DNA of 53,963 nucleotides from Bacteriovoracaceae bacterium (GTDB taxonomy: Bacteria > Bdellovibrionota > Bacteriovoracia > Bacteriovoracales > Bacteriovoracaceae): positions 1 through 53,963 of the forward strand of contig CANFHC010000020.1 of assembly GCA_947446575.1 (NCBI GenBank), in the 5' to 3' direction. The stretch's first letter is position 1. Each line of letters begins with the position of its first letter. The notes under the pieces are model-generated. The model saw only the letters and a list, made by a program, of their open reading frames with translations, was not told the origin of the DNA and ran no database searches. A program made the position numbers and the translations under genes. Shown piece after piece: positions 8,369 to 16,849 of the stretch.

Positions 8369-9064
8369 GTGCAATCAGGAACTTTAGACATTTTTAAAAT
8401 TATTCTACAATCAGGCTTTGTCGTAAAAATCGTTCTTAGTCTTCTAGTTGCTTGCTCTGTTTTTTCCTGGGCGATTATTTTCAAAAAGAGAAAACTTTTT
8501 AATGAAGTAGAAGAAGAAAATATTCGATTTTATGAAATCTATCGATCATCAGAAAATTTGAAAGATATTATGCTTAAAAGCGAAATGTTGCCATTTTCTC
8601 CCTACAAAGCATTATTTACGAATGGATATGCTGAACTCATAAAAATTCGTGAAGCTTATACAGGACAGCATAAAAGTGGACTATCATTTCACTTTCAAAA
8701 TTTTGGTTTAGGTATTTTAGAACGCGGTTTAAAAAAAGGCGTTAACGAAACGAATCTTGAATTAGGTGGATTACTTTCTACTCTAGCTTCAATTGGTTCT
8801 GTCTCTCCATTCATTGGTCTCTTTGGAACTGTTTGGGGTATTATCAACGCTTTCTCTGGATTAGCTTCTGGAGGAGGATCAATCGATGCAGTTGCTCCTG
8901 GTATTGCAGAAGCTTTAGTGACTACGGCCGTGGGTCTAGCAGCAGCGATTCCTGCAGTTTGGTTTTACAACTCGTTTAACAATCGCTCAGACAAAGTAAA
9001 CACTGACATGGAAACTTTTGGGCAAGATTTTTTAAACGTTGTTGAGCGCTCGATCGTCGAATAA
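8369..9064 (+). CDS. tolQ: TolQ/ExbB-type proton channel protein
   Basis: 231 residues with the MotA/TolQ/ExbB layout: TM1 at about 18-36, a cytoplasmic loop, then TM2 and TM3 around 132-165 and 176-200. The conserved run includes [16 protein letters not shown] and [16 protein letters not shown]. With TolR it forms the inner-membrane proton channel that energises TolA. The GTG start at 8369 follows a GGGAGA site. The order tolQ-tolR-tolA-tolB identifies it as the Tol rather than the Exb version. The Tol system tightens the outer membrane at constriction sites. Confidence 0.92.
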
Positions 9065-9083
9065 AAGAATAAAGGAAAATCTT

Positions 9084-9500
9084 ATGGCCTTTAATACTAG
9101 TAAAAAGAAAGGAGCTATTTCAGATATCAACGTAACTCCGTTGGTAGATGTTATGCTCGTTCTTCTCATTATCTTCATGGTGACTGCTCCTTTAATGTTA
9201 AATGGGATCAAACTTGATCTTCCAAAAACAAAAGAAGTGAATCCTATTAATTTAAATTCAGCGCAAGTTATTCTCTCTTTTAGTAAGAGTGAAGAATTTT
9301 TTCTTGGTAAAGATAAACTTCTCGCTAATGAAATCATTCCTGAAATTCAAAAACAATTTAAGACCAATAAAAGTGAAACACTTTTTTTGCGTGCTGATTT
9401 CAGTTTACCTTATGGAAAAGTGGCAAGGTTGATGTCTTTTTTAAAGCGCGGAGGAATTCATCATATTTCTCTGGTGACTGTGACTGATGATAAGGAATAG
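9084..9500 (+). CDS. tolR: TolR/ExbD biopolymer transport protein
   Basis: 138 residues: a basic N-terminus, then [20 protein letters not shown], which carries the single membrane helix and the proton-path Asp (D22). A periplasmic domain follows. It pairs with TolQ in the stator that harvests proton motive force. I chose ATG 9084 because AAAGGAAAA lies just upstream and the family starts there; an upstream in-frame start at 9039 lies inside tolQ. The next gene begins immediately after its TAG. Confidence 0.92.
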
Positions 9501-10349
9501 ATGAGAGCTATCGAAACTCACTCATTCAATCAAAAAAAGTTGCCGTTTTATTTACGGCGATCGACTTACGTACATATTGCTCTTTTTTCTCTCACTCTTA
9601 TTGGTGGTAAGGCCATAAGCCTTCAGCAAGAAAAAATCCGTGAAAAAAATATGGAACTTGTTCAAGCATCTGTACGCGTCGATATGGTAGCAATGCCTAA
9701 ATACACTTTAAATGAATTAAAAAATCTTTCGAGTGGTGTGGAAGAAGCTAAGAAAGAAGAAGCGACTCCAGCTCCAGAAGTTAAAAAAGAAGAGCCTGTA
9801 GTAAAAGAAGAACTAAAGCCAGAACCAAAAGTTGAAGCAAAGCCAGACCCAACTCCAAGCTTTGAAGAAGCAAGTAAGCAAAAACGACAAAATTTTTTAA
9901 GCAAGCTTAAGCAACTTGGTAATAAAAAAATCAAAAGCGAAGGTAATCAAAAAGCTGACAAAGGTCTTTATGGAGAAAAAAACACTGATTTGAAACAGTT
10001 GGTGCTCTCGGGTAATAAATTAAGTAAAGGTGTTCAAATGTATGGAGATGGAAATTCCGGCGATATGACGGCTTTTCAAGCTTATGCAGCCAGGCTTCCA
10101 GATTTAGTGCGCCCTCATTGGAGATTGCCAAGTTTTCTTTTAGAAAAAAAATTAAAATGCCGAGTGCGAGTTTGGATTGCTTCTAACGGTGAAGTCACTC
10201 GGGCCGAAGTTTATCAATCAAGCGGTGATAGTGAGTACGATCAAAGATCAATCGATGCTGTAAAAGCATCTTCTCCGTTGCCGCGCATGACAGAAGAGTT
10301 TGCAAAACGTGGCCACAATGGCGATATACTTTTAGGGTTTCCTCTATGA
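9501..10349 (+). CDS. TolA/TonB-family energy transducer
   Basis: 282 residues. One membrane helix (about 22-40) is followed by a Lys/Glu/Pro-rich stalk (about 70-130) and a C-terminal TonB/TolA-type domain (about 195-282) with LVRPHWRLP, CRVRVWIASNGEV and SIDAVKASSPLP. It should link the TolQR stator to outer-membrane or periplasmic Tol partners, so by position it is the TolA of this operon. The stalk is much shorter than the helical domain of E. coli TolA, and the C-terminal motif is more TonB-like. Its start directly abuts the tolR stop, and tolB overlaps its end by ATGA. Confidence 0.85.
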   Translation: MRAIETHSFNQKKLPFYLRRSTYVHIALFSLTLIGGKAISLQQEKIREKNMELVQASVRVDMVAMPKYTLNELKNLSSGVEEAKKEEATPAPEVKKEEPVVKEELKPEPKVEAKPDPTPSFEEASKQKRQNFLSKLKQLGNKKIKSEGNQKADKGLYGEKNTDLKQLVLSGNKLSKGVQMYGDGNSGDMTAFQAYAARLPDLVRPHWRLPSFLLEKKLKCRVRVWIASNGEVTRAEVYQSSGDSEYDQRSIDAVKASSPLPRMTEEFAKRGHNGDILLGFPL

Positions 10350-11683
10350 AAAATGTAATTTTTTTATTGGTACTTTTTATTTTTTCATCTGCTTTCGCTC
10401 AAGACGATAACTTAACAGTTGTCGCTGTCGGTGAAGCCACACTTGAAAAAGATAAAATGATTATTCAAGATCCTTATATTCAAGGTGCTGTGACAAGTGG
10501 ACAGAAAACTGCAGCCACGGATTTGGTAAAGCTCTTGAGAAATGATTTTAGTTTTTACCAAAAAAAATTCTTCTTAGTAGAAGCAGCTCCTAATAATACA
10601 AGCTATAGGCCTCCGACTAATTATGATTACTGGAATGGAAAAAGTGTACGGTTCTTAGGCTCTGTTATTGCAGAAAAAAGTGGAGAGAATTTAAAAATCA
10701 CACTGGCCTTTGAAGATATTAAAAATAGAAAACAAATTTTCAGTAGCACGGTAACCACTGGTATCGTGAACCTTAGAAAAACTGGACATGAATTAGCTAA
10801 CTCTGTGTACAAGCAGATCGTTGGGAAAGAATCTATTTTTAAATCTAAGATTGTTTTTGTTTCAGATAGAAACTCGAGAGGATCAAAGTCAGTTAAAGAA
10901 ATCTATATGATGGATTTCGATGGAAAAAATGTCACACAAATAACGAGTCACGGAGGGATAACTATTTCGCCTTCTATGTCTCTTGATGGCCACTTCCTTG
11001 TATATTCTCTTATTTCGAATTCCAGTGGAAAACGCAATAACAACCTCTACCTTATGGACATGAGAACTAAGGAGGCGCACGTTATTTCTCAAAAAGAAGG
11101 GATGAACTCCGGAGCTATCTTTTTACCAGGTGGAAAAAGCATTGCCCTCACTTTGACCGTTTCAGGTAACGCAGAAATTTATGAAATGGATTTAGAATCA
11201 AAAAATTTAAGAAAGATCACAAATCATTTTGCATCTGACGTTGACCCCTCTGTTACTTATGATGGGAAGCTAATGACGTTTCTATCAGATAGAGCAGGTA
11301 AGGCAATGATCTATACAATGGATCCTAATAGTGAAGAGAAAAACGTAAAGCGCATAAGCTTCGTAGGTCAATTCAATGCGACTCCGCGCTTTTCACCAGA
11401 CGGGAAAGAGATCGTCTTTTCTTCATGGCTAGATAACTCGTTTGACCTCTTTAGAATCAGCTCAGATGGGGCAGGACTTTCGAGGCTAACAAAGGATTTT
11501 GGATCCAATGAAGACCCTAGTTACTCCAATGACGGGGAGTTTATCGCATTCACAAGCCAGCGCGTGATCTCGCGAGTGAAAGCCGATCAAAATATCTACA
11601 TAATGGATCGTGATGGGGGAATTTTGGGGGCTATAACTCAAGGTTTTGGAAACTGTATAAGTCCTAGATGGTATAACTTCTAG
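10346..11683 (+). CDS. tolB: Tol-Pal system beta-propeller protein TolB
   Basis: 445 residues: signal peptide (1-18), an N-terminal alpha/beta domain (about 20-155), then a six-bladed propeller with PD40/WD40-like repeats such as IYMMDFDGKNVTQIT, LYLMDMRTKE and FSPDGKEIVFSS. TolB is periplasmic and contacts Pal and TolA. The start overlaps the tolA-like stop by four bases. No pal gene follows; the next gene is a transcription regulator with its own promoter. Length and repeats fit the family well. Confidence 0.93.
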   Translation: MKNVIFLLVLFIFSSAFAQDDNLTVVAVGEATLEKDKMIIQDPYIQGAVTSGQKTAATDLVKLLRNDFSFYQKKFFLVEAAPNNTSYRPPTNYDYWNGKSVRFLGSVIAEKSGENLKITLAFEDIKNRKQIFSSTVTTGIVNLRKTGHELANSVYKQIVGKESIFKSKIVFVSDRNSRGSKSVKEIYMMDFDGKNVTQITSHGGITISPSMSLDGHFLVYSLISNSSGKRNNNLYLMDMRTKEAHVISQKEGMNSGAIFLPGGKSIALTLTVSGNAEIYEMDLESKNLRKITNHFASDVDPSVTYDGKLMTFLSDRAGKAMIYTMDPNSEEKNVKRISFVGQFNATPRFSPDGKEIVFSSWLDNSFDLFRISSDGAGLSRLTKDFGSNEDPSYSNDGEFIAFTSQRVISRVKADQNIYIMDRDGGILGAITQGFGNCISPRWYNF

Positions 11684-11731
11684 AAATCACATAAATCCTG
11701 CATTTTTTTTAGTCAACCGAGTATTTTAGTC

Positions 11732-11760
11732 TTGTAAATTTTTCAGACGCACTGTATTAT
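11732..11760 (+). promoter_or_regulatory. Sigma-70-type promoter of the NtrC-like regulator gene
   Basis: TTGTAA (11732-11737) and TATTAT (11755-11760) are separated by exactly 17 bases and lie about 50 bases before the ATG at 11814. The 8-mer ACCGAGTA occurs on both sides of the promoter, at 11716-11723 and 11763-11770, and could be a pair of operator half-sites. The same -35, spacer length and -10 recur at 13351-13379. Confidence 0.6.
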
Positions 11761-11813
11761 TTACCGAGTAACGCAACGCAAGTTATTCAATTAAATTGTC
11801 CAGGAGTTATACA

Positions 11814-13346
11814 ATGACAACATCAGCGACTAACCAAAATGCAGCATTAGAAACACTTTCTTCAGTTCTATTTTTAAGTCTAGATGAAGCTCATTTCTTC
11901 AATTCAATTAACAAGTTTTTTATGCAAAATATGAAGTGTCACAAAGTTCAAACTTTTAAACTTTTAGACAACGGCCAAGCTCAACTTATGTCAGAAGACG
12001 GAATGATCGCTACTCACTCACTTATCTTAGATAAAGGTGTTGGAGCAGTAGGATATATCGCTCGCACGAAAAAAGGGTATTTCTCAAACTCAGTAGATAG
12101 AGACCCAGTTTTCACAAGAGAAGCCGCTCTTGGAATTAAAGCTGAATTAAGCCTTCCAATCTCAGTTGATGGTGTTGTTATCGGATCTATTCACTGTCAA
12201 ATGAATGATAATTCTCGTGAATTCGAGCGTAGTGATATGACTTTTGGTATGTCGATCATGAACGAAATTAAAGCTCCAATCCAAAATATGAAAATGTATT
12301 TGGCAGCTAAAAACTTAAACGAAACTCTTTTAAGAACAATTGAATTAAAAGAAAAAGAACTTCAAGAATCACGTTCTGGTTTAAAACTTCAAGATACTTT
12401 CCGTATCATTGAAAAAGAAATCATCGGACGCTCTCAATCTATGAAAGATCTTTTAGCTCTAGTAGATAGAATTTGTGATAAAGATATTTCAGCTTTCATC
12501 ATGGGTGAAGCAGCTACTGGAAAAGAGATGATCGCTCGTAGAATTCACTGCAGATCACACCGCCGTGATAGAGCATTCGTAGCAATCGATTGTTCAACTA
12601 TGAATGAAAAACAACTTGAAATCGAAATCTTTGGTGATGACTCTCGAATGGGTATGCTTGAAGCAGCTAATTATGGATCTCTTTTCATCAATTCAACTGA
12701 AATGATGCCAGCAAGTATCCAAAATAAACTTATGCAATATGTGACTTCTAAAATGGGAATTAAAGCAGGAAGCCAATCATTCTTTAAATCAGACGTAAGA
12801 TTAATTTCAGCTTCAACTAAAGACCTAATGGACCTAGTTCGTGATAACAAATTTAGAGAAGATCTATACTTTGCTCTAAGTACAGTAGTGTTAAAAGCTC
12901 CAGCTCTAAGAGAAAGAAAAGAAGATATCGAAGTACTTGCTAACTTTTTCTTGAACCAAAACAAAGCAAAAGAAGTACAAAAATCTTTCTCTCCATCAGC
13001 TATCAAGTCTTTGACTGAATACAACTGGTCAGGAAACGTTAGAGAGCTACAAAACGTAGTAGAGCGAGCTTTTATCTTGGCCGAAGGGACAATTATTGAA
13101 AAACTTCACTTAGACCAAAATATCCAAAACGCTGAAGTTCAGCCAGTAGTAGAAAAAAGTGTACAAGTAAAATCTCAGGAATTTGTTCTTGTGACGCTAG
13201 AAGAGCTAGAAAGAAACCACATTATGAGCACACTAGAGAATCTAGGCGGAAATAAGACAAAAACAGCTAAAGTTCTTGGAATTACAGTTAAGACTCTATA
13301 CAACAAACTTCATTCTTACGGGATTGAATTTGATAAGGAAGCTTAA
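11814..13346 (+). CDS. NtrC-family regulator with defective ATPase and no GAFTGA loop
   Basis: 510 residues: GAF sensor domain (about 10-165), a linking helix, an AAA+ domain (about 203-430) and a Fis-type helix-turn-helix (about 465-505, GGNKTKTAKVLGITVKTLYNKL). Walker A is kept as GEAATGKE (231-238). The Walker B position reads L290-F-I-N-S-T where the family has FLDEIGE, so the magnesium-binding Asp-Glu pair is gone. The GAFTGA segment that touches sigma-54 is deleted between EIFG (271-274) and GMLEAA. Sensor I and the Arg-finger region remain. It probably binds DNA without remodelling sigma-54, as for TyrR-type members. ATG 11814 follows CAGGAG; the preceding TTG is ignored. Confidence 0.88.
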   Translation: MTTSATNQNAALETLSSVLFLSLDEAHFFNSINKFFMQNMKCHKVQTFKLLDNGQAQLMSEDGMIATHSLILDKGVGAVGYIARTKKGYFSNSVDRDPVFTREAALGIKAELSLPISVDGVVIGSIHCQMNDNSREFERSDMTFGMSIMNEIKAPIQNMKMYLAAKNLNETLLRTIELKEKELQESRSGLKLQDTFRIIEKEIIGRSQSMKDLLALVDRICDKDISAFIMGEAATGKEMIARRIHCRSHRRDRAFVAIDCSTMNEKQLEIEIFGDDSRMGMLEAANYGSLFINSTEMMPASIQNKLMQYVTSKMGIKAGSQSFFKSDVRLISASTKDLMDLVRDNKFREDLYFALSTVVLKAPALRERKEDIEVLANFFLNQNKAKEVQKSFSPSAIKSLTEYNWSGNVRELQNVVERAFILAEGTIIEKLHLDQNIQNAEVQPVVEKSVQVKSQEFVLVTLEELERNHIMSTLENLGGNKTKTAKVLGITVKTLYNKLHSYGIEFDKEA

Positions 13347-13350
13347 TACC

Positions 13351-13379
13351 TTGTAATATGTAACGCAAAAAAGTATTAT
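13351..13379 (+). promoter_or_regulatory. Sigma-70-type promoter of the small basic protein gene
   Basis: TTGTAA (13351-13356) and TATTAT (13374-13379) are spaced 17 bases apart, identical in boxes and spacing to the promoter at 11732. The 9-mer GTAACGCAA lies in the spacer (13360-13368); the same 9-mer lies just downstream of the -10 box of the other promoter (11768-11776). The start codon at 13402 is close, so the leader would be about 15 bases and still hold the TTGGAGG ribosome site. Confidence 0.55.
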
Positions 13380-13401: not shown

Positions 13402-13623
13402 ATGTCGATTATAGAAACAGAAGCAGTTGTAGAGAGCCCGAAGACTCCGAGAAACTTTAGAACAGCAATTGATATTGAAAATTTTTACCGCTTCGTTAAT
13501 GATAACGATCTTAGAAAGGAAGCTAAAATTATGCTGGAAATGATCCAAGCAAAAGTTATGGCCTCTGTTAAAAAGAAAAAGAAAGAAGCAAAAGCAGCTA
13601 GCAAGAAAAACAATTTACACTAA
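13402..13623 (+). CDS. Small basic protein, unknown function
   Basis: 73 residues. An acidic N-terminal stretch (residues 1-13) leads to a likely amphipathic helical part (about 20-55), then a Lys/Ala-rich tail (VKKKKKEAKAASKKN). The tail could bind nucleic acid or another acidic partner; no Cys or known motif is present. The start follows a strong TTGGAGG site; an upstream in-frame TTG at 13390 lies inside that site. It has its own promoter matching that of the preceding regulator gene and a strong terminator. I do not recognise the family. Confidence 0.7.
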   Translation: MSIIETEAVVESPKTPRNFRTAIDIENFYRFVNDNDLRKEAKIMLEMIQAKVMASVKKKKKEAKAASKKNNLH

Positions 13624-13701: not shown

Positions 13702-15147
13702 ATGGAAGTTACGACTCAAAAGAATCACGTTATTTATGATCCTATTTATGGATTTGTAAAACTCAACCCTATTGAATGGGAAATAATCTCTTCGCCATTT
13801 TATCAACGCTTGCGCTGGATTAAGCAATTAGGTTTTTCCTGTTATGTTTTTCCAGGAGCTGAACACTCGCGCTTTCATCACTCAATTGGAGTAATGTTTA
13901 ACGCTCATAAAATTTTAGAATCTTGTGGACGTGCTGTGACTGAAAAAGAATTAATGGATCCTGCATGTTTAACAATTGAGGCGATCTATCATAAAAGTTT
14001 ACGTCTTGCGGCCCTTATGCACGATTTGGGAACGTTTCTTTTTTCTCACACTACAGAAGGCGCTTATATTGAATATGGCGAAACTACCCGCACAAAAGGC
14101 GGTAAAGGTTTACCGGATGATCATGAGAACTTAGGTTCATTCATCATTAAAAATACAGATTACGAAGGTGGGATTACTCATATCCTAAAAAAATTCGGAA
14201 TTTCTCCTCAAAGAATTTCTGATTTAGTTAAGGGCGTTGATGAATCAATTCTGGCCAATCAAATTCTTCATTCGGAAGTTGATTGTGATCGTATGGATTA
14301 TTTATTGCGAGACGCTCATTATACAGGATTAAAATACGGATCATACGATCGCGATTATTTGCTTTACCACTTTCAAGTTAAGCGAGTTGATAACCACGAT
14401 ATTTTAACTATTCGTCATAATGCACTTCACTGTGTGGAAGATTTCTTAACTTCACGTTTTGCTTGGTATTCACAAGTTATTCGTTCTCCCAGAGGAGCAA
14501 AGTTTGATGCAATTGCCGAGACGATTTGTTTTTATTTTTTAGAGAAAGGTTATATCTATCGTTATAGCGAACTGCTCGAGATGATCGAAAAAGATCCAAT
14601 GAAATTTTATGGCTTCAACGACACTTATTTTATGGGGCTCGTTCATAAACATTTAACAAATGGCGATTTGGATAAATCACCAAAAATTAAAAGTATGGCC
14701 AGAACGATATTGCTAGCAAGTGGCGGGAAAGCGATACGCTGCGAAGAGTTCAAGTCGCGCCTTCTTTCTCAAGATGATCCAGGTGCATTAGAGAAATATT
14801 CCAAACGAGCAACTGCTAAAGCCCACGAAATCGAAGAATTTCTTAAGAAGAAGGGCGGACCTGCTGACTGGATGATTTATGACATACCAAAAAAAGCGAT
14901 TATGTTTGTAAAATCTCCAAAGAATGTCGCAAAAAATTCTTCCAAAGACCTCTCAAATGTCCTTTTGGACCGTGATCCTGTGAAAATTACAATGGAAAAT
15001 GGGGAAGTTAAACTTTTGGGCGAGGTGGAAAATTCCCTAATCTCTAAACTTTTTAACAGCAATAACTTTATTCCGAACGTCTATTGTTCTACTTCTGCCT
15101 ATGAACTTTTACTGGCCGAAGGGGTTATTGAGGGAAGTTTTAGCTAG
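13702..15147 (+). CDS. HD-domain phosphohydrolase (dNTPase/SAMHD1-like)
   Basis: 481 residues. The HD metal site is seen as HSRFHHSIG (55-62), MHDLG with H107-D108, and the later SEVDCDRMDYLLRDA, the layout of the SAMHD1/dGTP triphosphohydrolase-like HD superfamily. The YGSYD segment after it is also typical. Members remove triphosphate from dNTPs or act on other nucleotides; the substrate here is not known. Residues 390-481 are a variable C-terminal part. There is no signal peptide, so it is cytoplasmic. Its start is just after a strong terminator, so expression may rely on read-through or a weak internal promoter. Confidence 0.85.
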   Translation: MEVTTQKNHVIYDPIYGFVKLNPIEWEIISSPFYQRLRWIKQLGFSCYVFPGAEHSRFHHSIGVMFNAHKILESCGRAVTEKELMDPACLTIEAIYHKSLRLAALMHDLGTFLFSHTTEGAYIEYGETTRTKGGKGLPDDHENLGSFIIKNTDYEGGITHILKKFGISPQRISDLVKGVDESILANQILHSEVDCDRMDYLLRDAHYTGLKYGSYDRDYLLYHFQVKRVDNHDILTIRHNALHCVEDFLTSRFAWYSQVIRSPRGAKFDAIAETICFYFLEKGYIYRYSELLEMIEKDPMKFYGFNDTYFMGLVHKHLTNGDLDKSPKIKSMARTILLASGGKAIRCEEFKSRLLSQDDPGALEKYSKRATAKAHEIEEFLKKKGGPADWMIYDIPKKAIMFVKSPKNVAKNSSKDLSNVLLDRDPVKITMENGEVKLLGEVENSLISKLFNSNNFIPNVYCSTSAYELLLAEGVIEGSFS

Positions 15148-15267
15148 ATGCGGGTGCCCGCTCTGGTTCCTATTTCCCCGTGTTTGTATCCCAATCTGGA
15201 AATAACCGGAATAAATTTCTCAGGTAATTAGATTTCCTACCTAAAAACCCAAATTTAAGTTAAAATT

Positions 15268-15296
15268 TTGAAATAGGATGGGGTCCTATCTTAGAT
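15268..15296 (+). promoter_or_regulatory. Putative ftsE operon promoter
   Basis: TTGAAA (15268-15273) and TTAGAT (15291-15296) are 17 bases apart and lie 43 bases before the ftsE ATG. The spacer contains the inverted repeat ATAGGA-N5-TCCTAT, and the -10 region runs into a second one, AGATC-N5-GATCT. This is the best promoter candidate in the 191-base gap after the HD gene. Confidence 0.5.
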
Positions 15297-15307
15297 CAGG
15301 ATGATCT
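15273..15307. repeat. Two palindromes overlapping the ftsE promoter
   Basis: ATAGGA (15273-15278) pairs with TCCTAT (15284-15289), and AGATC (15293-15297) pairs with GATCT (15303-15307). Both have five-base centres; their midpoints are 19 bases apart. The first fills the promoter spacer and the second covers the -10 box and likely start point. They could be repressor operators, or two small hairpins in DNA of no function. Confidence 0.4.
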
Positions 15308-15338
15308 ATGAAAATAAGACTTTGGAGATAGGGTCAGT

Positions 15339-16067
15339 ATGGTAAATCTTAATACTTCATTGAATCAAAAAAATGTTTCGAAAGGACCTCCGGGCACTAG
15401 TGGTGGTGGGCCTATTTTTTATTGTGAAGATGTCTCAGTTCAGTTCGATGAAACACGAGCTCTAAAAAATATTCAATTAACTATCGAGCGCGGTGAAATT
15501 ATTTTCGTCACTGGAGCTTCTGGAGCTGGAAAGACAACTCTTTTAAAAGTTTTATCAGGCGTTCAAGAGCCGACATCGGGAAAAGTTATTCGTCCGAATG
15601 CAATTTCAGCCAAAAAAAATCTCTACATCTCAAACGTGTTTCAAGATTTGCGTTTGATGGGAAGATACACGTGTGAAGAAAATTTAATGTTTGCTTACGA
15701 CTCAGCAATTTACAAAGATAAAAATGAATTTGTTCAAGATATGCATGAACTTTGTCGCATTCTTGGGATCAAAGATAGACTCAATTTAAAAATCAATTTA
15801 GCCAACGGTGGACTTCAACAAAAAGTAGCAATCGTTCGCTCTCTTCTTACTCGTCCAGATATTTTAATTGCAGATGAACCAACGAGTTCACTGGATTCTG
15901 ATAACACGAGAAGAATGTTTGATGTCTTTAATCTCTACAACGCCAAACGTGGGTTGACGGTTGTGTGGGCCACACATAATAAGGAACTCATTAAGAGTTT
16001 CACTGGCCGAATTATTCATTTAGACAATGGACGTTTAGTGTATTCGGGGCATGCATGTTTTATTTAA
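15339..16067 (+). CDS. ftsE: Cell division ABC transporter ATPase FtsE
   Basis: 242 residues with a complete ABC ATPase: Walker A GASGAGKTT near residue 62, Q-loop region SNVFQDLRLMG, Walker B ILIADEPTSSLD and the switch His in VWATHN. The signature is divergent: ANGGLQQKVAIVRSLL in place of LSGGQ-type. About 28 extra N-terminal residues, Gly/Ser-rich, precede the domain. FtsE works with FtsX at the division ring, where ATP use controls periplasmic wall hydrolase activators. The next gene, ftsX, overlaps its 3' end by 13 bases. Confidence 0.92.
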   Translation: MVNLNTSLNQKNVSKGPPGTSGGGPIFYCEDVSVQFDETRALKNIQLTIERGEIIFVTGASGAGKTTLLKVLSGVQEPTSGKVIRPNAISAKKNLYISNVFQDLRLMGRYTCEENLMFAYDSAIYKDKNEFVQDMHELCRILGIKDRLNLKINLANGGLQQKVAIVRSLLTRPDILIADEPTSSLDSDNTRRMFDVFNLYNAKRGLTVVWATHNKELIKSFTGRIIHLDNGRLVYSGHACFI

Positions 16068-16849
16068 CTCAGTTTTTCAAAATTCTTTTCAAATCACCAC
16101 TTAGGGGATTTTTTCTTTTCTTGTTTTCTATTTTGATGGTTTTCTCCATTGGGCAGAAAGCATTTTTAGAAGACCAATTTTTAAAAATGATTCCAGAAAA
16201 TAAGGCTGGCTCTTATTTTTATGCATTGATTGCTTCAACGGAATCTTACCAAAACGTTGCTCGTCAAATGACCGTTCTCCCAGGAGTACATAAGGTAGAA
16301 GTTTTATCTGAAGCGCAAATAAAAGATGAAGTTAAAGGAATTCTTGGATCTCTTCAAGCAACTTTATCGCCTACGACACTTGATCTAAACTACGCAGGGC
16401 TTAAAGTTATTTATGCCAAAGATTTAAAGCCGCGCGCTCAAGAATTAATTCGCGATTACCTCACGCATTTAGTTGGAGAGGGTAATATTACTTTAGGTGC
16501 GATTAAATTAAATGATCAATCCCTAGATAAGCGCAATCAATTTATCGGAGCGATTAAGACTTGGGGATATTCGCTATATCTTTTCATTATTTTTTCATTT
16601 TGGATGATTTCACTGCTTTCAGTGAGAGTGAAAATCGCCGAAGCTTCATATTTACTTGAGAGTTATCAAAGAAAGAAAAAAGTGGGCGTGAAAATGGCCA
16701 GTTTTGGCTTAACGTTGATTTTTATCCTTTCTGTTGCTTCAACATTTATCTTAGGAATGCCACAAGTTTTAAACTTAGTCGTGGCCTTTGTTCTTTTTGT
16801 GGTGGGGATTCTATTGCATAGTAAAAAATATTTATGGGAGAATCATTAA
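16055..16849 (+). CDS. ftsX: Cell division membrane protein FtsX
   Basis: 264 residues with the FtsX layout: one membrane helix near the N-terminus (about 18-33), a periplasmic domain (about 40-165) and three more membrane helices (about 168-190, 208-230 and 235-255). FtsX is a mechanotransmitting permease-like protein that passes FtsE ATPase conformational change to an EnvC-type activator. The start overlaps ftsE, and the next gene encodes an EnvC-like protein, which fixes the assignment. Confidence 0.9.
   Translation: MFYLTQFFKILFKSPLRGFFLFLFSILMVFSIGQKAFLEDQFLKMIPENKAGSYFYALIASTESYQNVARQMTVLPGVHKVEVLSEAQIKDEVKGILGSLQATLSPTTLDLNYAGLKVIYAKDLKPRAQELIRDYLTHLVGEGNITLGAIKLNDQSLDKRNQFIGAIKTWGYSLYLFIIFSFWMISLLSVRVKIAEASYLLESYQRKKKVGVKMASFGLTLIFILSVASTFILGMPQVLNLVVAFVLFVVGILLHSKKYLWENH

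Follow-up and report, generated by a model that had tools for sequence, protein, structure and literature searches.

The GAF-AAA+-Fis regulator encoded in the window (the whole stretch of 53,963 nucleotides analysed) has, judging from alignment with intact relatives, lost its motor and sigma-54 contact loop long ago, whereas the DNA-binding part and the promoter of the gene were retained. With a probability of about 0.6, it was read as a former sigma-54 activator that lost its motor and would now bind DNA and regulate transcription at sigma-70 promoters; the promoter seen to be sigma-70-like was its own only. By analogy with TyrR, DhaR or HupR, it is probably a motor-dead, self-regulating protein at such promoters.

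Domains and catalytic motifs

The window is contig C20 of a genome of 3.39 Mb in 71 contigs. The open reading frame started with an ATG at 11814, preceded by a good RBS (CAGGAGTTATACAATG), and its stop codon ended at 13346. Pfam returned GAF_2 (residues 62-152), Sigma54_activat (203-360), AAA_lid_14 (366-443) and HTH_8 (461-501), the last in line with the Fis HTH that the sequence-only reading had described as kept; the domain order was GAF-AAA+-Fis and the AAA+ and lid domains of a bEBP were both present (PF00158, E 3e-36; PF25601). The closest named records were Bacteriovorax MAGs (up to 89% protein identity). Structure prediction, built on 11 near-identical sequences, was good for the GAF and HTH domains and poor for the AAA+ domain, of which the model was used for no conclusion. 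Foldseek matched the modelled GAF domain to Lcd1 and PtsP-type GAF domains (TMt 0.72-0.76). The features of the gene were:

11814-13346, + strand: coding sequence of the predicted motor-dead GAF-AAA+-Fis regulator, 510 aa (ORF, Pfam, alignments, synteny)
11871-12278, + strand: GAF domain, about residues 20-155 (Pfam GAF_2; AlphaFold pLDDT about 71-90; Foldseek)
12414-12899, + strand: AAA+ domain, residues 201-362 (Pfam Sigma54_activat; modelled poorly)
12504-12527, + strand: Walker A GEAATGKE, residues 231-238 (alignment)
12588-12590, + strand: switch position (PspF N64), Asp259 (alignment)
12636-12650, + strand: L1 remnant of 5 residues (275-279), GAFTGA deleted (alignments)
12690-12695, + strand: Walker B position, Asn293-Ser294 instead of Asp-Glu (alignments)
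12855-12875, + strand: R-hand RxDxxxR, here R348-D350-A354 (alignment; motif from PMC3419264)
13026-13049, + strand: sensor II WSGNVREL, R410 kept (alignment)
13194-13316, + strand: Fis-type HTH, residues 461-501 (Pfam HTH_8; identity within clades)

Motifs were aligned with solved sigma-54 activators and with four full activators from the same genome. Only 5 residues lay between FG274 and G280, versus 14 in the four reference activators, and the alignments placed neither GAFTGA nor DE in the domain, which bore out the earlier claims that the GAFTGA segment is deleted and that the Walker B Asp-Glu is Asn-Ser at 293-294. Walker A, previously described as kept, did retain K237, but its fourth residue was Ala234 (Gly elsewhere), a change limited to the window genus. 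The Arg-finger region, likewise described as kept, was so by half: R348 and D350 (PspF R162 and D164) were present, but the second Arg (PspF R168, NtrC1 R299) was Ala354. The regulator is thus, on alignment, more degenerate than first described, with Walker A, the switch Asn and the second R-hand Arg changed too; among the sequence features of a bEBP it had neither the GAFTGA loop, nor the Walker B Asp-Glu, nor a full RxDxxxR R-hand.

In PspF, changes at N64, D107, E108, R162, D164 or R168 cripple the ATPase (PMC3419264), and the L1 loop is set by a glutamate switch made up of E108 and N64 (PMC4132715). The contact with the gamma-phosphate has been given to R299 in NtrC1 (review PMC7175178), while R162 of PspF has been favoured elsewhere (PMC3419264). 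The equivalent of R299 is the lost A354 and that of R162 the kept R348; under either assignment, ATP hydrolysis by the regulator is very unlikely, going by the PspF and NtrC1 literature. With loop, Walker B, switch Asn and second R-hand Arg gone, the regulator should almost certainly not remodel sigma-54, as had been proposed, although rpoN is present in the genome.

Distribution, synteny and history of the loss

A family search at E 1e-60 covered 59 genomes, with one match each in 55, and a larger search with a looser cut matched 116 of 116 genomes, a few of the matches being fragments or weak. Nearly every Bacteriovoracaceae genome had a single ortholog, usually in the same syntenic place. 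The usual gene order in the loci read was tolQ-tolR-tolA-tolB, regulator, small ORF, HD-domain gene, ftsE and ftsX; tolB, HD or the small ORF was missing from some loci within the stretch examined. In the window, these neighbours were:

8369-11683, + strand: tolQ-tolR-tolA-tolB, upstream (Pfam MotA_ExbB, TonB_2, PD40; synteny; tolR by position only)
13402-13623, + strand: small conserved basic protein, 73 aa; its gene follows that of the regulator in the family and in many further families of the phylum
13702-16849, + strand: HD-domain protein, ftsE and ftsX, downstream (Pfam HD, ABC_tran; synteny; ftsX by position, with no Pfam match)

The 73-aa protein (core kNFR..D.ENFYRF..ENDLR.EA) occurred in 121 of the 144 genomes sampled from the phylum, almost always as one copy; its gene adjoined the regulator in many families and was unlinked in genomes like those of family f6. 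Pfam and NCBIfam returned no family above cut-off for it.

By similarity, 110 degenerate family sequences were divided into clade A (50) and clade B (60). None of them had FTG and all were without the GAFTGA loop; Glu was found at the second Walker B position in 8 of 110, and L071 alone had DE with the loop gone. In clade B, the second R-hand Arg was mostly Ala (27/60) or Ser (18/60), the sensor II Arg was kept in 57 of 60, and the switch pair (PspF Asn-Glu) was Asp-Asn (38/60) or Asp-Ser (13/60). In clade A, the second R-hand Arg was kept (47/50) and the sensor II Arg was lost, mostly to His or Gln, and the first R-hand Arg (position 348) was Arg in 16 of 50 and Lys in 29. As an observation apart, the genome of the window (G000) had two further activator-like genes without GAFTGA and with an altered Walker B, L007 (C23:44659-45564, - strand) and L008 (C11:70555-71559, - strand), the latter with one stop codon within the matched stretch.

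Two family members, L072 (genome G028) and L240 (G039), kept FTG and DE. The former had the full syntenic order, and the latter the small ORF, HD and ftsEX, without tolB in the stretch examined. Best matches were also collected and aligned across the phylum, and 38 sequences of other families were counted; L198 and L201, which grouped with paralogs in the tree, were left out of that count. Walker B DE and a 14-residue L1 were found in 38 of 38 other-family relatives and in both early-branching family members, and FTG in 37 of the 38 (the exception, L164, had CAFAGA). Some other-family relatives adjoined tolB and the small ORF, which supports orthology; that of the others, including the GAF-less sequences of 350-400 aa of f6 and its kin, rests on the tree. 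The latter sequences (L179-L197, from f6 and related families) had intact motor motifs, and the small ORF lay elsewhere in the genomes checked.

A gene tree from which the L1 and Walker B columns had been excluded grouped the degenerate sequences together (SH-aLRT 89), and both intact family members branched outside that group; species trees placed G039 and G028 near the family base. The number of motor losses, one or two, depended on the tree: HD needed 2 changes, rpoB left G028 unplaced, and a seven-gene concatenate needed 1 change, with a union support of only 24. Since a loop of normal length and Asp-Glu are found in the 38 other-family relatives and in two early branches of the family itself, the ancestor was a normal sigma-54 activator.

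Between the window and near kin, dN of the AAA+ domain was about 0.08-0.11 with dS of about 1, which is less than in the GAF domain and close to tolB. The HTH was the most conserved of the regions measured, with pairwise identity averaging 0.81 inside each degenerate clade, and the stretch LGIT-KTLYNKLH was common to degenerate and intact relatives. Being shared by all 110 degenerate sequences, in a state under purifying selection, the loss of GAFTGA is not a matter of chance.

Promoters and dyads

Upstream of the two genes, the following elements were found:

11729-11748, + strand: GTCT-N12-AGAC dyad across the -35 and spacer (37/60 clade B loci, 4/50 clade A loci, 0 shuffled copies)
11732-11760, + strand: sigma-70-like promoter of the regulator, TTGTAA-17-TATTAT (conservation; only such element with a CAGACGC spacer in the genome)
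11769-11785, + strand: imperfect copy of TWACGCA-nn-GCGTWA just past the -10, TAACGCAACGCAAGTTA, a candidate operator (family dyad consensus)
13351-13379, + strand: sigma-70-like promoter of the small ORF, TTGTAA-17-TATTAT (genus comparison)

The earlier description of the regulator's promoter as sigma-70-like was supported, and the promoter was conserved across the family. TCTTGTA lay upstream of the regulator in 47 of 49 clade A and 58 of 60 clade B loci, as well as in intact L240, and the block TTTTAGTCTTGTAA-n5-TTCAGACGCA-TGTATTAT was almost invariant in 13 genus loci. When the genome was scanned for this kind of promoter with the CAGACGC spacer (3 mismatches or fewer), the only site returned was the regulator's own promoter. 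One of the two binding sites named beforehand, GTAACGCAA, belonged to a conserved promoter-proximal element; the other, ACCGAGTA, was not itself conserved in the genus, but ACTGAGTAACGC was. The promoter was found irrelevant to the loss of the motor, because intact, early-branching L240 carries the same TCTTGTAA element, and this part of the sequence-only reading was not borne out.

The dyad TWACGCA-nn-GCGTWA was found upstream of the gene in 62 of 108 degenerate loci (2 mismatches or fewer), versus 1/108 with a scrambled and 1/108 with a backwards pattern; these loci had themselves supplied the pattern, which makes the count descriptive for the family and the independent support smaller. Within family loci, 64 of 70 dyad matches sat at the regulator promoter. 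In the window copy, the left arm was present and the right arm imperfect; this copy fell outside the 2-mismatch cut, and the window genus had the imperfect dyad only. Independently of the degenerate loci, the dyad was found in intact L072 and in 5 of 38 other-family loci (0 for controls; four of the five being close relatives in f6), and at 3 mismatches in 16 of 38 (5-6 for controls). A general inverted-repeat statistic downstream of the -10 was barely above shuffles. From these sequences, we infer that the HTH of the regulator, and not another protein, binds the dyad; instead of an operator, the dyad could be a 5'-UTR hairpin.

Ahead of the small ORF, a sigma-54 promoter was considered for the genomes with intact orthologs and rejected, as no -24/-12 element was found there. 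The place of the small-ORF promoter was also read in L040-L049, and in several genus members the spacer held a TTGCGaaAGCAA-like dyad.

Function and alternative readings

The regulator fell far below the cut-offs of the NCBIfam equivalogs DhaR (181 versus 551 bits), TyrR (160 versus 576), NtrX (216 versus 600) and NifA (225 versus 529); it lies outside all named families tested and, by analogy, would work like TyrR, DhaR or HupR. These three, together with VpsR and YplP, are activator relatives with a defective GAFTGA, of which DhaR, TyrR and HupR have been reported to be sigma-70 dependent (PMC3162934); VpsR and YplP are probable precedents too. Like DhaR of E. coli and the others, the regulator descends from a sigma-54 activator with GAFTGA changed or deleted; unlike DhaR and TyrR, it has a different neighbourhood and lineage, and it lost Walker B and half of the R-hand besides GAFTGA, on which alone DhaR and TyrR were compared. 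NtrC of Rhodobacter capsulatus and of Caulobacter share the L1 deletion and act at sigma-70 promoters, and in the former ATP binding, but not its hydrolysis, has been reported to be essential (PMC10274813); both are response regulators with a phosphorylated Asp, whereas the regulator carries a GAF domain and lacks Walker B. NtrX (Brucella; PDB 5m7n), which ranked near the top of the full-length matches by sequence and by structure, has a short L1 without GAFTGA in the alignment, but its Walker B is DE and not N293-S294. NifA-type GAF-AAA+-Fis activators have the same domain order, but the regulator is without their GAFTGA and Walker B.

In the preferred reading, an ancestral GAF-AAA+-Fis sigma-54 activator lost GAFTGA and catalytic residues. 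Its HTH would bind the candidate operator beside its own promoter, and the regulator would thereby autoregulate. Both the GAF domain and what is left of the nucleotide pocket (K237, R348, D350, R410) are possible sensors, and they would set the oligomeric state without hydrolysis. In PspF, the ATPase is abolished by single changes at residues corresponding to those lost here, and several such variants are constitutively hexameric (PMC3419264, PMC4132715); constitutive hexamers are described for variants at R162, D164 and R168 (PMC3419264). The default state here may therefore be a static oligomer, by extension from PspF. A more specific proposal, tentative and rather unlikely, is that the whole family converted a sigma-54 motor into an AAA+ regulator that is static, works without hydrolysis and has a rewired sensor. 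The Asp-Asn switch pair of most clade B members might then keep a nucleotide-sensing contact without catalysis. Clade B lost the second R-hand Arg and clade A the sensor II Arg, as if the same motor-dead regulator had been reached by two routes.

An abundant DNA-organising protein, instead of a specific regulator, is improbable. The preference of the gene for C-ending codons was the highest among the 42 ORFs of the window and, in G014, near that of rpoB, and the bias was significant in both degenerate clades; but it was also present in 32 of 37 intact other-family relatives and thus not tied to motor loss, of which it was rejected as a mark. As codon bias is no more than a proxy for abundance, it indicates that expression of the gene is probably high; conservation of a dyad at a single promoter points to specificity. 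Also improbable is a cyclic-di-GMP effector of the FleQ/VpsR type: the AAA+ domain aligned to both, and VpsR, whose GAFTGA deletion has been noted (PMC3162934), regulates sigma-70 promoters (PMC10274813), but the N-terminal domain of the regulator is GAF.

The regulator might form rings together with an intact paralog, in which it would either dampen activity or supply R348 and D350 in trans, and so act indirectly on sigma-54 promoters. GAFTGA and Walker B DE are intact in seven paralogs of the genome, R348 and D350 are retained, and Walker-B-defective and R-finger-defective PspF subunits complement each other (PMC3419264). Identity to the paralogs was only about 25-36% over the AAA+ part, the loop needed to join a working ring is gone, and most of clade A lacks the Arg at 348 (16/50 Arg, 29 Lys), so that such rings are quite improbable. 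Activation of sigma-54 by an unusual route is highly improbable: Caulobacter NtrC variants without GAFTGA have been reported to raise sigma-54-dependent flagellar genes (PMC12421884), but that protein has retained, and depends on, the Walker B Asp D235 (PMC10274813), and the regulator is also without Walker B, switch Asn and second R-hand Arg. A decaying pseudogene, to which the many different ways of losing the catalytic motifs could point, has a negligible chance, as presence in nearly all family genomes, no stop codon within the orthologs listed, dN/dS near 0.1, the conserved HTH and sigma-70-type promoter and the promoter-proximal dyad argue against decay.

With its intact relatives, two early branches that are also intact and 110 degenerate descendants, the locus offers a natural series in which to study the passage from an ATP-driven activator to an ordinary regulator with the DNA-binding domain kept. 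Annotation would label the regulator as sigma-54-dependent in this family of predatory bacteria, and that label is almost certainly wrong.
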